Shown: positions 6,190 through 39,138 of the stretch, piece after piece
Layout of the letters: each line of letters begins with the position of its first letter
How positions within the stretch are numbered: position 1 is the stretch's first letter
DNA from: a virus
Direction: 5' to 3' (one strand)
Virus record (IMG/VR): IMGVR_UViG_3300043468_000854
Span: 1 to 39,138 of that record
DNA: 39,138 bases
Made by a program: the position numbers and the translations under genes
The notes under the pieces: generated by a model
Databases searched by the model: none
The model's input: only the letters and a program-made list of their open reading frames with translations
What the model was told of the DNA's origin: nothing

Positions 6190-6285
6190 CACCCCTATGG
6201 GTGTGCCATAATGGCACCTGCCAAACTGGCATTCCCAAAACTGAGAATTCCCAAAAATGAGAAGGGTCCTCCGGGAGGGGGGGGG
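6190..6285. promoter_or_regulatory. Candidate DNA packaging (cos/pac) region
   Basis: Non-coding block directly upstream of the small terminase gene. From left to right: dyad CACCC-CTAT-GGGTG (6190-6203), dyad GTGCCAT-A-ATGGCAC (6203-6217), dyad TGCCA-AAC-TGGCA (6219-6231), a tandem 16-base repeat ATTCCCAAAACTGAGA/ATTCCCAAAAATGAGA (6231-6262, one mismatch), then CCTCC-G-GGAGG and a run of nine G (6277-6285). The TGCCA half sites recur with 15-base spacing. Lambda-type phages place cos and the Nu1 binding sites immediately before the small terminase gene, as here. Assignment is by position and structure; no cleavage site can be read. Confidence 0.5.
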
Positions 6286-6355
6286 TGGCAGCGAGCGGGC
6301 TTTGCCCATCCCTAAATTTTGATGTTTTCAGTGTGCGAATCTGGTAACTAAGACC

Positions 6356-6871
6356 ATGGGACACAAAAAACGATGCAATCAGGCTGAGCTTGCCCGTGTT
6401 TTGGGGGTGACTTCCCCCACCCTTACGAAGTTTAAGCACGACCCGACCTTCCCAGAGTTTGATTCAGACAACAACATCGAGATTTACGCCGGATGCGTCT
6501 GGTGGTACCTGCGCAAAGAGGCGCAGCCGGTCCCGTCAGATCCTGACATGCTGGCCGGCACCGAGTCCGATGGTCTGGAGCGGTACAGGCTGGCGCGAGC
6601 ACAACAGGAAGAAATCAAGCTGGCAGAACAGCGGGGGCAGATCGTCAAGCTGACCGACTTCGAGGAAACTGTGCAGGCGATTCTGGGACCGTATCGACGA
6701 TTCGCCGAACACCTGAAAAGGGTGGCTGGAAGCGACTTGTGGACAATGTTACAGGAAGCAAATGAGGAGGTCTTACAGGGATTGGAGCGTCTGACAAATG
6801 CACATGGCGACACCACAACACCAGATCCCGTGGGATCTGTACGCGAAGCCGTCAGCGGCGGCACTGCGTGA
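6356..6871 (+). CDS. Terminase small subunit, Nu1-like
   Basis: 171 residues. The N-terminus carries a winged helix-turn-helix as in Nu1-type small terminases (QAELARVLGVTSPTLTKFKHDPTFPEF, residues about 8-36, then a region resembling a wing). The middle (residues 80-100, RYRLARAQQEEIKLAEQRGQIV) is the charged helix typical of this family, which in lambda mediates assembly with the large subunit. It would recognise packaging sites, probably the repeats just upstream. The start lacks a strong Shine-Dalgarno sequence. The C-terminus overlaps the large subunit gene by 74 bases. Confidence 0.8.
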   Translation: MGHKKRCNQAELARVLGVTSPTLTKFKHDPTFPEFDSDNNIEIYAGCVWWYLRKEAQPVPSDPDMLAGTESDGLERYRLARAQQEEIKLAEQRGQIVKLTDFEETVQAILGPYRRFAEHLKRVAGSDLWTMLQEANEEVLQGLERLTNAHGDTTTPDPVGSVREAVSGGTA

Positions 6872-8819
6872 CGTATTTGCCCGGCATGTGGTGTTGAGAC
6901 CATACCGGACGATGCGGCAGTTTTCTGAGGACGAAATCATCCTGCCCGATGGACCCTACCAGGGGCAGCGTTTCCGAGTCGCACGCCAGCCGGCACACGG
7001 GTTATTTTTTGACGCGGTCGATGCCGGGCAGTTTTTCCGCTACGCCTGCACAGGTCCGCAGCAGTCGGGCAAGACACTTGCGTTTGTGGTGATTCCGATT
7101 CTGTACCACCTGTTTGAGCGAGTGCAGACGGTCCTGTTCGGGCTGCCGACGATGGACATGGCAGCGGACAAATGGAAGATGGACATCAGGCCGGCGATTG
7201 AGGCCAGCCGCTACGCACAATTCCTGCCACGCAAAGGCAGCGGATCTGGCGGTGGAACGCCGAGTTTGATTCAGTTCAACAACGGGGCCGCGCTCAAATT
7301 CATCAGCGCAGGTGGCGACGACAGCAAACGCGCCGGGTTCACGGGGCCGGTGCTGGTGGTCACGGAGGTGAGCCACTTGGACGAGGTCGGGGGCAAGTCC
7401 GACGAAGCCACGAAGCTGAAGCAAATGGAGGGCCGAGTGCGAGCCTACAGGGCGAGCGGACAAGCCCGGATCTATCTCGAATCGACGGTGACAGTGGAGA
7501 CGGGCCGAATCTGGCAGGAATGGAGCCAGGGTACAGCAGGCGAGGTTGTGTTTCCGTGCTTTTCCTGCGGTGAATTCATTGTGCCGAGTCGTGACAATCT
7601 GATTGGCTGGCACGATGCGACCACAGAGGCAGAGGCAGAGGCGGCGAGCCGTTGGGCCTGCCCTGCCTGCGGTATCCTGTTTGACGATGCACAGCGAATT
7701 CAGCAACTCACGCAGGCCAGGCTCAGGCACCGTGGCCAGATCATTCTGCCGGATGGATCGTTGCACGGCGAGATACCGGCGACGAAGACGATGGGTTTCC
7801 GCTATTCTGCAGCCACGAACACCTTTGTGACTGCCGGCATCGTCGGTGCGGATGAATGGCGTGGGATGCGTGAGGTTGACCGCGACAACTCAGAGCGGGA
7901 GATTCTCCAGTGGACCTGGGCACTGCCGGCGAAGCCAAAGGAAACGGCCGTTGAGCCACTGGACTGGAAGACCGTGATGCACCGCCAAAGCCAGTACAGG
8001 CGGGGGCTGGTCCCGGCAGATTGCAGCCGCATTGCAGCCGGTGTGGACGTGCGAGCGGCACAGTTGGACTGGTTCGTGATTGCAAAACACGACACGAGCG
8101 GGCAGCCGTTTTGTGTGGACTACGGATATGAGCCGATCCAGCGAGAATTGACGGACCTGCCGACAGCCATTCGGCAGGCTGTGCGGCTGCTGATGGAAAA
8201 ATTTGAGGCTGGCTGGGAGCTGGAGAACGGCGGACAACGCGGGGCGGAAATCGTCATGATTGACGCCGGCTGGGAAACGGATCTGATTCGGTCCATCGTC
8301 GCTACGAATGACACGTGGAACACGTGCAAGGGGTTCGGATTTAAGCAGCATTCAGGCACGACGTACCACGCACCGAAAGACAAAAGCAAAATCACACTCA
8401 GGATTGGCGAGGGCTGGCACGACGTGGCGTTTCTGGACGGCACGAAGCGTTATCGCGAGTATCAGAACAACGCGGACCACTGGAAGCGGCGAGTGCATCA
8501 GGCGTTGAGCGTGGAAGCCACAAGTGCGGCGGCATTGTTGCTGCCACGGACGGATAAGCCGGAAGGCCGGATGGAAGTGGCAAAACAACTGACCGCAGAG
8601 CGTGAGGTGCAGGAATTCCAGGTGGGCAAGGGCACGGTGACGAAGTGGACGCAAACATTTTCACGCAACCACCTGCTGGATGCGTGTTATCTGGCGTTTG
8701 TGGGGCATTCCGTGTTAGAATTCGAGCGAAAACGGGCCGAAAAAATCGCTGAAAATCGGCCACAAAACGGCGTTATTTCAGGCAAAAAGCCCGAAAAATT
8801 CGTGAAAGGTTGGAAATGA
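6798..8819 (+). CDS. terL: Terminase large subunit, lambda gpA family
   Basis: 673 residues, close to the gpA family length. N-terminal ATPase: adenine-binding and Walker A region GPQQSGKT at 86-93, Walker B VLVVTEVSHLDE at 185-196, and a zinc-ribbon-like insertion CFSC at 254-257 plus CPAC at 288-291, seen in gpA-type enzymes. C-terminal nuclease: acidic residues in GVDVRAAQLDW (415-425) and MIDAGWE (about 487-493), and the terminal NHLLDACYLAF motif. It cuts concatemers and drives DNA into the prohead through the portal. The start at 6798 has GGAG ten bases upstream; 6804 is possible. Overlap with the small subunit gene supports joint translation. Confidence 0.95.
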   Translation: MHMATPQHQIPWDLYAKPSAAALRDVFARHVVLRPYRTMRQFSEDEIILPDGPYQGQRFRVARQPAHGLFFDAVDAGQFFRYACTGPQQSGKTLAFVVIPILYHLFERVQTVLFGLPTMDMAADKWKMDIRPAIEASRYAQFLPRKGSGSGGGTPSLIQFNNGAALKFISAGGDDSKRAGFTGPVLVVTEVSHLDEVGGKSDEATKLKQMEGRVRAYRASGQARIYLESTVTVETGRIWQEWSQGTAGEVVFPCFSCGEFIVPSRDNLIGWHDATTEAEAEAASRWACPACGILFDDAQRIQQLTQARLRHRGQIILPDGSLHGEIPATKTMGFRYSAATNTFVTAGIVGADEWRGMREVDRDNSEREILQWTWALPAKPKETAVEPLDWKTVMHRQSQYRRGLVPADCSRIAAGVDVRAAQLDWFVIAKHDTSGQPFCVDYGYEPIQRELTDLPTAIRQAVRLLMEKFEAGWELENGGQRGAEIVMIDAGWETDLIRSIVATNDTWNTCKGFGFKQHSGTTYHAPKDKSKITLRIGEGWHDVAFLDGTKRYREYQNNADHWKRRVHQALSVEATSAAALLLPRTDKPEGRMEVAKQLTAEREVQEFQVGKGTVTKWTQTFSRNHLLDACYLAFVGHSVLEFERKRAEKIAENRPQNGVISGKKPEKFVKGWK

Positions 8820-9013: not shown

Positions 9014-9151
9014 ATGCCGATGAAAAAGGGCTACGGAAAACAGGCTATTGCGGAAAATATCCGGCTGCTGATTCGCGAAGGCAGACCGCCAAAGCAGGCG
9101 GCTGCCATTGCCTACGAAAAGGCACGCGAAGAACGACGAAAAGCAAAGTGA
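9014..9151 (+). CDS. Very small conserved basic phage protein (KGY...KQAAAIA type)
   Basis: 45 residues from ATG 9014, with GGAGG at 9000-9004. The pattern MPMKKGYGKQAIAENIRLLIREGRP then KQAAAIAYEKARE resembles a widespread family of tiny phage and plasmid proteins (KGYSKKTI-x-x-NI, GKPQKQAVAIA) found near packaging and head genes. Function is unknown in that family as well. Its closeness to the AGTCGCA array may be accidental. Confidence 0.7.
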   Translation: MPMKKGYGKQAIAENIRLLIREGRPPKQAAAIAYEKAREERRKAK

Positions 9152-9154
9152 TGC

Positions 9155-9203
9155 AGTCGCACGATAGTCGCAGCACAGTCGCAAACAGTCGCAATCAGTT
9201 TCA
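9155..9203. repeat. Helically phased AGTCGCA direct repeats
   Basis: Four perfect AGTCGCA copies start at 9155, 9166, 9177 and 9187, and a degenerate AGTTTCA starts at 9197. Spacings are 11, 11, 10 and 10 bases, one helical turn, so all sites lie on one face of the DNA. Such arrays are typical of cooperative protein binding (operator, partition-like or packaging site). They sit upstream of a promoter and a gene for a helix-turn-helix protein. Confidence 0.8.
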
Positions 9204-9220
9204 TTTGTGACGAAAATAAA

Positions 9221-9249
9221 TTGAAACAGGTTCAGTGCTGTGCAATACT
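9221..9249 (+). promoter_or_regulatory. Putative sigma70-type promoter for the HTH gene
   Basis: TTGAAA at 9221-9226, a 17-base spacer, AATACT at 9244-9249. An imperfect dyad GTTCAGT...ACTGTGAAC spans the spacer and -10 region, as an operator would. Just downstream of the AGTCGCA array and 35 bases upstream of the MerR-like gene. Moderate match only. Confidence 0.4.
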
Positions 9250-9283
9250 GTGAACGGCGTTAGAAGTCTGTGCAGCATCTGAA

Positions 9284-9487
9284 ATGGAACACAATATGGA
9301 AAAGCGTTATAGCATGTTGGAAATTGCGAGGTTGTTTGGCGTAGCCACGTCTACTGTGAACGGATGGATTGTTGCTGGAGTCTTGCCGGCAACAAACGTG
9401 GCTGGACCAAAAGCGAAGCGGAGGAGTTGGCGTATCACTGAAAGTGATATAGCTGAGTTTCAGAAAAAACGCAGTAACCAGAATTGA
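9284..9487 (+). CDS. MerR/excisionase-like helix-turn-helix protein
   Basis: 67 residues. YSMLEIARLFGVATSTVNGWIVAGVLPATNV is a clear HTH_17/MerR-type winged helix start, and the tail KRRSWRITESDIAEFQKKRS is the usual closing of this domain (wing plus final helix). Known members act as excisionases, transcription regulators or small terminase-like binders. The gene is more A+T-rich than its neighbours, has its own putative promoter and is followed by a hairpin, so it looks like an independently transcribed insertion (moron) in the late operon. It may bind the array or dyad upstream; inference only. Confidence 0.75.
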   Translation: MEHNMEKRYSMLEIARLFGVATSTVNGWIVAGVLPATNVAGPKAKRRSWRITESDIAEFQKKRSNQN

Positions 9488-9510
9488 TGCAGAAGCATTA
9501 AAAGCGAAGT

Positions 9511-9545
9511 GACTTCCAGACGACTGGAATATCCGTCTGGAAGTC
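9511..9545. terminator. Perfect 12-bp hairpin, possible terminator or processing site
   Basis: GACTTCCAGACG (9511-9522) pairs perfectly with CGTCTGGAAGTC (9534-9545) around an 11-base loop. No T run follows on the + strand (CCCGCC). On the - strand a TTTT lies about six bases after the stem. It may stop transcripts of the HTH gene weakly, act as a processing signal, or be a protein-binding palindrome. Confidence 0.45.
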
Positions 9546-9560
9546 CCGCCATCCTGCGAC

Positions 9561-9809
9561 ATGATTCGCAGCATGGCACGATCCGCTGCAGACCGTCTGG
9601 CACTGTTTGAGGGTATCCGCGACAAAGTCGAGGGTGCTTTGCTGTCCGGTGCGCCCGTGGTGAGCTACACCGTTGACGGGCAGATGGTGCAGAAGGAGCC
9701 GACGAGCACGTGGTTGGCAGAGCTGGACGCACGCATTGCAGACCTGCGCCGCCAGGCATCCGGCGGCATCGGACGGTCTCGGAATCTTGTGAGGTTCCGC
9801 AATGACTGA
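9561..9809 (+). CDS. gpW-like head-tail connector
   Basis: 82 residues (an alternative ATG at 9573 gives 78). Layout resembles lambda gpW (68 residues): an N-terminal helix (RSAADRLALFEGIRDKVEGALLSG), a beta hairpin (PVVSYTVDGQMVQKEP), a second helix (TSTWLAELDARIADLRRQ) and a basic tail. gpW completes the head after packaging and prepares tail joining. Its place directly before the portal gene is the lambda order (Nu1-A-W-B). No clear Shine-Dalgarno sequence. It overlaps the portal gene by 8 bases. Confidence 0.72.
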   Translation: MIRSMARSAADRLALFEGIRDKVEGALLSGAPVVSYTVDGQMVQKEPTSTWLAELDARIADLRRQASGGIGRSRNLVRFRND

Positions 9810-38159: not shown

Positions 38160-38982
38160 TGCAGAGCGTGAGGCGGTCGGGCGTCTTGTGGACATCGTTC
38201 CGAGGGCCGGGGATTTCCCTGGCTATCTGGACGTGCTTCGAGATCCCGCAAACAGCCCACTAACGCGGATGCAGGTGGAGCGACAACAGCGCAACGACTG
38301 CCAGGGGAACGCAACCGCAAACGGGGAAGAGGTCCGGTCGTGGTATTGCAGCGGTCGGCAGCGCATGCCGGTGCTGTCTGAGATGTACGCCTACAATGCG
38401 AGCGAATACGTGATGCAGCCGAGCAACGTGGGCGGCGACCGTGGCACGTCGATACACTCGGGCGTGCGGGTGCTGTGCGAGGGAATTCCCGGTCTGCAGG
38501 TCGATCCGGGATTGCCCACTGAGTCTGTCTGGCCTTACGCGCAGTATTGCCGGAGGGCGTCCGAGTTTGTGCGGTGTTGTCAGGGCCTGCAGGTTGAGGC
38601 ACCACACGTCACCGAGGTCAAAGACCTGCCAGAGTGGGACGATATGCTGGCCGCACTCGCGGCAGGCAGCACAGGGCACATTGGCACATTCTGGGGCGTA
38701 AGCTGGCGGACGGTACCCGGTGCACCGAAGCGAGTCATGGACAGCGCACCGAGGTCTGGCGGCGGACATGCCACAGAGATCATATGGGCCGTGGAAGTCG
38801 GTGCGGATTGGTATTTGGCGGTGTGGAATTCCCACGGGGATGGTTACTATCTGATGAGTCGGCGATGTTACGAACAACTGTGCACGAATAGCTGGGAGCC
38901 GTTTGGCGGGTTCCTGCTGACGCCGGATCGGATGGTTGAGCGATACGACAGAATCACGCAGGGTGGAGGGTATTTCGCATGA
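38125..38982 (+). CDS. Papain-like (C1A-type) cysteine peptidase, complete allele
   Basis: 285 residues. Catalytic pattern in order: RNDCQGNATANGEE with Cys59, GLPTESVWPYAQYC (equivalent to the family G-x-x-x-E-x-x-YPY), SGGGHATEI with His215, and WNSHGDGYYL with Asn235. The N-terminal 50 residues may be a propeptide-like or attachment arm; no signal peptide is seen. Phage papain-like peptidases are rare. Candidate functions are cell-wall cross-link cleavage at lysis, or processing of a virion or host protein. Several extra cysteines (76, 118, 142, 151, 152) may need a reduced environment. The next gene starts within its stop codon. Confidence 0.78.
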   Translation: MVSVANLPRPSDAEREAVGRLVDIVPRAGDFPGYLDVLRDPANSPLTRMQVERQQRNDCQGNATANGEEVRSWYCSGRQRMPVLSEMYAYNASEYVMQPSNVGGDRGTSIHSGVRVLCEGIPGLQVDPGLPTESVWPYAQYCRRASEFVRCCQGLQVEAPHVTEVKDLPEWDDMLAALAAGSTGHIGTFWGVSWRTVPGAPKRVMDSAPRSGGGHATEIIWAVEVGADWYLAVWNSHGDGYYLMSRRCYEQLCTNSWEPFGGFLLTPDRMVERYDRITQGGGYFA

Positions 38983-39138
38983 ACAGGACATGGTCAGTGC
39001 TTGCGGTGGCAGGGCTCTTTGCAGTGGTATCTGCGGTGCCACTGGCGGCAATGATGCACGGCGACGAACCGCCCGCTTCCGTCAACGACATACTGCAGAA
39101 AATTTGCGCACGACTGGACGCGATTGAAAAACGACTCG
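38268..39138. repeat. 3' copy of imperfect terminal redundancy
   Basis: Homologous to 1-871 with constant offset 38267; the last 127 bases (39012-39138) equal 745-871 exactly. See the 5' copy for the mismatch pattern. Removing either copy gives a 38,267-base unit. Confidence 0.9.
38979..39138 (+). CDS. Thioredoxin-fold protein lacking cysteines, 3'-truncated copy
   Basis: Start of the gene found complete at 712-1182; the first 53 residues are present before the window ends. It differs at residue 2 (Asn for Ile) and at residue 10 (Val for Ala) from the other copy. Same GGAGGGTATTTCGC ribosome-site leader and ATGA junction with the peptidase. Represents the same gene seen from the other end of the circular map. 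Confidence 0.8.
   Translation, partial: MNRTWSVLAVAGLFAVVSAVPLAAMMHGDEPPASVNDILQKICARLDAIEKRL

Follow-up and report, generated by a model that had tools for sequence, protein, structure and literature searches.

A four-site direct-repeat array and a MerR-like helix-turn-helix gene share one insert in the head operon of a virus contig

The window analysed here, a virus contig of 39,138 bases (IMG/VR record IMGVR_UViG_3300043468_000854), carries a 361-bp insert among its head genes. The insert opens with four exact copies of the heptamer AGTCGCA, spaced one helical turn apart, and encodes a small helix-turn-helix (HTH) protein; array and gene occur together in the one related record that has them. 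Tentatively, and as a reading that could well fail, we take the insert for a moron-like regulatory cassette in which the protein encoded there would bind the array as its cooperative operator.

Genomic context

The gene order in this part of the contig is terS, terL, p66, p45, the HTH gene, a gene in the gpW position and a lambda-family portal gene. Features around the insert are as follows.

6356-6871, terS, PHROG terminase small subunit
6798-8819, terL, GpA type
9014-9151, plus strand, p45, left neighbour of the insert, phrog_2423 (no assigned function)
9152-9512, plus strand, insert of 361 bp that holds the array, the promoter-like stretch, the HTH gene and, at its right end, a repeat of the p45 3' end, from gap comparison
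9492-9512, plus strand, p45 3'-end copy, EALKAK-stop (EARRKAK-stop in record L006), from direct repeat D2 and L006, by inspection
9514-9529, conserved 16-bp dyad TTCCAGACGACTGGAA, immediately to the right of the insert and varying by compensatory substitutions in relatives
9561-9809, plus strand, gpW-position (head-tail joining) gene, 82 aa, right neighbour, named for its position before the portal gene

The gpW-position gene has a marginal PHROG match to head-tail adaptors (E=0.022), and the start used by its relatives corresponds to 9573. Distant relatives of terL lie mostly within Planctomycetota genomes, which points to a planctomycete as the probable host of the phage.

Between 6356 and 11781 the window is a mosaic by best match: L011 for terS (99.4%), L001 for terL (100%) and for p66-p45 (99.4%), and L040 for the gpW-position gene (96%), with at most ~82% at the start of the portal gene. 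The window ends, 1-871 and 38268-39138, form an inexact 871-bp direct repeat (~90% identical), perhaps because two strains went into the assembly of one circular genome. In several relatives, whose contigs come from different samples, the contig begins at ~6297-6310, after the G-rich run GGGAGGGGGGGGG (region 6260-6310) and before terS; either the genome physically ends there or assembly broke off at the G run.

Two further elements lie to the right of the insert. The TTCCAGACGACTGGAA dyad stands ~45 nt before the gpW-position start and is found in nearly all relatives, once per sequence checked, with the arm pairs TTCCA/TGGAA, TACCA/TGGTA, TTCTA/TAGAA, TTACA/TGTAA and TTGCA/TGCAA; it is either an RNA hairpin or a co-evolving operator. 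A second short hairpin covers the gpW-position start (9553-9576), and by eye its arms differ among relatives: TGCGA-CATGAT-TCGCA in the window and CCATGCAA...TTGCATGG in L022. On paper, the array as RNA could pair with TGCGAC close to this start.

Boundaries of the insert

Among 27 relatives that carry p45, 59-69 nt separate the p45 stop from the gpW-position start; the window has 421 nt there and L006 (IMGVR_UViG_3300032050_009237) 425 nt. In L040, the empty site reads GCAAAGTGA, followed directly by CTTCCAGACGACTGG. The array and the HTH gene are therefore one insert, 9152-9512, which, as in phage morons, separates two genes that are direct neighbours in related records. The original prediction had set the gene in the middle of the late operon; its position in the head operon holds, but it belongs to an accessory insert and is not an ordinary late-operon gene.

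On its right side the insert closes with a repeat of the p45 end, and the downstream dyad is thus preceded, here too, by a p45-like end. The repeat could stem from target duplication, from insertion guided by homology or from a second p45 of which only this end is left, and the same pattern would result if other lineages had lost an ancestral cassette by deletion between the two p45-end repeats. A classical transposon was rejected, since no inverted termini were seen by eye. No integrase gene or att site was found in the 361-bp insert, in a scan that covered part of the phage's genes.

The repeat array

The array and the conserved block that contains it are placed as follows.

9155-9161, plus strand, AGTCGCA copy 1, exact heptamer
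9166-9172, plus strand, AGTCGCA copy 2, exact heptamer
9177-9183, plus strand, AGTCGCA copy 3, exact heptamer
9187-9193, plus strand, AGTCGCA copy 4, exact heptamer
9146-9196, plus strand, 51-bp block identical to L006, whole array with linkers, from sequence comparison

The spacings of 11, 11 and 10 nt each correspond to one helical turn, and the four sites therefore lie on one face of the helix, in agreement with what had been predicted. AGTCGCA is the sole heptamer in the window that forms a chain of at least three copies at 9-12 nt spacing. In simulated sequences (second-order Markov, with the window's own composition), chains of at least three copies arose at 0.017 places per window, and no four-copy chain arose in 300 simulated windows. 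The array is real, and the simulations exclude chance. A fifth, degenerate copy had also been proposed, and we do not retain it: AGTTTCA (9197-9203) agrees with the heptamer at 5 of 7 letters, is absent from the array-bearing relative L006, and is more plausibly the left arm of the dyad GTTTCA...TGAAAC.

Besides the window, the insert is present in 1 of ~65 related virus records, L006. It is also absent from the relatives without p45, and a p45-based scan, which also reached a few distant new loci, gave no further copy in the relatives already surveyed. In all relatives examined, the array and the HTH gene are present or absent together; neither was seen alone in any related record. The prediction was to be refuted by a missing array where the gene is conserved, and it passed: the sole other gene-bearing record found has an identical array. 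With n=2, this co-occurrence supports a functional link and fits autoregulation.

Over 9110-9196, which includes the end of p45, the window and L006 are identical at 86 of 87 positions. To the right of the 51-bp block their similarity is lost, and the DNA up to the HTH gene is unrelated. Judged against the 70% identity of the genes, an identical stretch of 46 bp would be very unlikely to persist by drift alone. A recent exchange of the array block is possible, because the adjoining p45 end is nearly identical and the window is mosaic; the terL-p45 part of the window is 99.4-100% identical to L001, an insert-free record.

When IMG/VR was scanned for three heptamers spaced as in the array, 19 contigs came up. 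Except for L006, their contexts looked unrelated and held no convincing relative of the HTH gene, and wide conservation of the array was rejected on this result. Contigs L042, L046, L052, L053, L056, L058 and L059 carry dense GTCGCA/TTGCGAC motifs in both orientations over ~200 bp with variable linkers, in what looks like a protein-binding cluster unrelated to the window phage.

Dyad and promoter-like site

Two elements follow the array.

9198-9227, imperfect dyad GTTTCA...TGAAAC (arms 9198-9203 and 9222-9227), overlapping the -35-like hexamer
9221-9249, plus strand, promoter-like TTGAAA-17-AATACT, sigma-70-like, a consensus match only

The promoter-like site matches the consensus at 9 of 12 positions, against ~0.5 such sites expected in the region, and is thus weak evidence of a promoter. 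In L006, the dyad was not found and the stretch from array to gene has no recognisable promoter match; a terminator-like hairpin lies there instead. No terminator match was found after the HTH gene in the window. The promoter-like region and operator-like dyad of the original prediction are thus present in the window but not conserved in L006.

The HTH protein

9296-9487, plus strand, single-domain HTH_17/MerR-like winged helix gene, 63 aa, from Pfam HTH_17, with the start taken from the L006 homologue

The reading frame can open at 9284, giving 67 aa (9284-9487); the homologous start in L006 suggests 9296 and 63 aa. The protein matches Pfam HTH_17 (PF12728) with E=1.4e-9 and 38.5 bits, above the curated cut-off of 27, which bears out the call of an HTH gene, and among PHROGs it matches an excisionase/regulator family best (E 1.3e-6). 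An AF2 model (pLDDT 77) gave the BldC-DNA complex and Pukovnik Xis as best Foldseek matches (E 6e-3), with VIA Z scores of 6.5-6.8, tied with other excisionases and MerR proteins. The description as MerR-like is thus right for the fold, and the model places the protein weakly, and in a tie, closest to BldC and the excisionases. At the sequence level, the match to BldC is very weak (E 0.24-1.3). The DNA-docking Trp31 of BldC and the wing arginines are kept; Arg30 and Lys26 are not, with Gly or Gln, and Ser, in their places.

Between the window and L006, the HTH proteins are 67% identical (70% as DNA), and changes in the C-terminal half are mostly conservative. At the positions of BldC Thr29/Arg30 one of the two proteins has N/G and the other I/Q. 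Relatives of the protein are found in 3 of 392 Planctomycetota genomes at E 1e-6, and the upstream DNA of four cellular homologues was inspected and has no array. No convincing copy of the gene was found elsewhere in the records of 15 relatives, and phage records yielded no relative of the region or of the protein. Plasmid records gave two short matches only, of 32-40 bp.

Proposed function and alternatives

In the model that we favour, the insert would be a regulatory cassette of moron type within the head operon. Its product, a MerR/HTH_17 winged helix protein of a single domain, would dock on the four AGTCGCA sites in up to four copies, head to tail and side by side. The resulting row would end near the promoter-like site and so set transcription of the cassette, and it might also affect read-through into the gpW-position gene and the portal gene. 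Binding to the array, its cooperativity, the autoregulation and the activity of the promoter are the predicted parts of this model. We propose it because the array is not a chance product and has one-turn spacing, because array and gene co-occur in all relatives examined, and because the 51 bp of the array are identical in two records whose HTH genes share 70% of their DNA and whose intervening DNA is unrelated. The fold, closest to Xis and to BldC as bound to the four-repeat smeA-sffA operator, the retained DNA-docking Trp and wing arginines, and the known precedents of head-to-tail binding to direct repeats (BldC) and of self-repression (RdfS) argue in the same direction.

Several observations argue against the operator model. 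The cassette is known in two copies only, the heptamer is unlike the BldC consensus AATTXXXXC, the array lies ~28 bp upstream of the -35-like hexamer, the four cellular homologues have no upstream array, and the stretch from array to gene in L006 shows a terminator-like hairpin where no promoter is recognisable. Although the arrays are identical, the two proteins differ at the Thr29/Arg30 positions (N/G against I/Q), and this argues against both of them reading the same bases through these residues; other contacts, or the indirect readout suggested for BldC and RdfS, could reconcile the difference with the identical arrays. The original interpretation is partly supported, by a single comparison: autoregulation fits the co-occurrence of array and gene (n=2), but less well the differing recognition helices and a dyad and promoter that are not conserved.

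The same helix difference, together with the array-free cellular homologues, would also be expected if another phage or host regulator of the cassette or operon bound the array and the cassette protein acted elsewhere. We consider this rather unlikely, as the array occurs only with the HTH gene and no candidate regulator was identified. The sharp boundary at which 51 bp of identity give way to unrelated DNA suits a somewhat less likely explanation, in which a mobile or exchangeable cassette has the array as its conserved left end, a recombination or exchange site with variable content behind it. The p45 3'-end copy bounding the insert on the right and the mosaic junction near the p45 end fit this as well; on the other side, the insert has no recombinase, inverted termini were not seen, and the gene family is the same in both known cassettes, which makes exchange of content at most putative. 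An improbable but related arrangement, a shade less credible than an array without function, is a minimal exchangeable cassette with a fixed four-site row and swapped regulators that differ in their DNA-reading helices, lodged at a structural gene's 3' end beside a covarying dyad as interchangeable control of the head operon.

Recent exchange could also account for the array if it has no function and is a chance or leftover repeat common to L006 and the window. The near identity of the adjoining p45 end (86 of 87 positions over 9110-9196) is consistent with this, and selection is not provable from two copies. We regard it as improbable, given that simulation excludes chance and that exact heptamers are joined by linkers varying in sequence and length, unlike a recent tandem duplication. 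Least probable by a wide step is a pac/cos packaging or assembly site for the terminase, as in lambda cosB. The array does lie between terminase and portal genes, and the fold also resembles small terminase DNA-binding domains (gpNu1 1j9i, 7lw0). Nearly all relatives, however, keep the same terminase-portal gene order without the array, on which ground the packaging site was rejected and the assembly site of the original prediction is not supported; the phage also has its own terS (6356-6871), and several relatives' contigs end near 6297-6310, not at the array.

Comparison with known systems

BldC of Streptomyces binds head to tail on rows of direct repeats, with one turn per subunit, and at smeA-sffA it occupies four repeats one turn apart (PDB 6AMA, 6AMK; PMC5859096). 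The phage protein is likewise a single-domain MerR-like winged helix of ~65 residues with no dimerisation or effector domain; the likeness is one of fold only, and the match to 6ama/6amk is tied with other MerR-like proteins. The repeats differ (AATTXXXXC for BldC, AGTCGCA in the window), the base-reading Arg30 and Lys26 of BldC are not kept in the phage protein, and BldC binds its repeats, whereas binding of the array by the phage protein is predicted only.

Excisionases, or recombination directionality factors, such as Pukovnik Xis (4J2N), RdfS (8DGL) and the GIsul2 excisionase (8C3T) share the HTH_17 group and the fold. They oligomerise on DNA, and RdfS, which like BldC assembles head to tail at one subunit per turn, represses its own promoter, a case of negative autoregulation (PMC11963761). 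In contrast, the phage insert has no integrase, its gene lies in the head operon and not beside an att site, and an excision function of the protein is at most putative. Like a moron, the insert places an extra gene, with its own promoter-like site, between two conserved head genes in few relatives; unlike one, it showed no terminator downstream of the gene (in L006 the terminator-like hairpin lies before the gene), and its right end repeats the 3' end of the gene upstream.

Both phage morons and small winged HTH proteins bound to rows of direct repeats, as in BldC and the excisionases, are already known; new here is that one insert combines them and carries a repeated gene end. In a phage cassette that joins such a small protein to four clean sites in a row, oligomerisation on DNA could be tested in a compact system, and the cassette would show how a regulator enters a phage structural operon.
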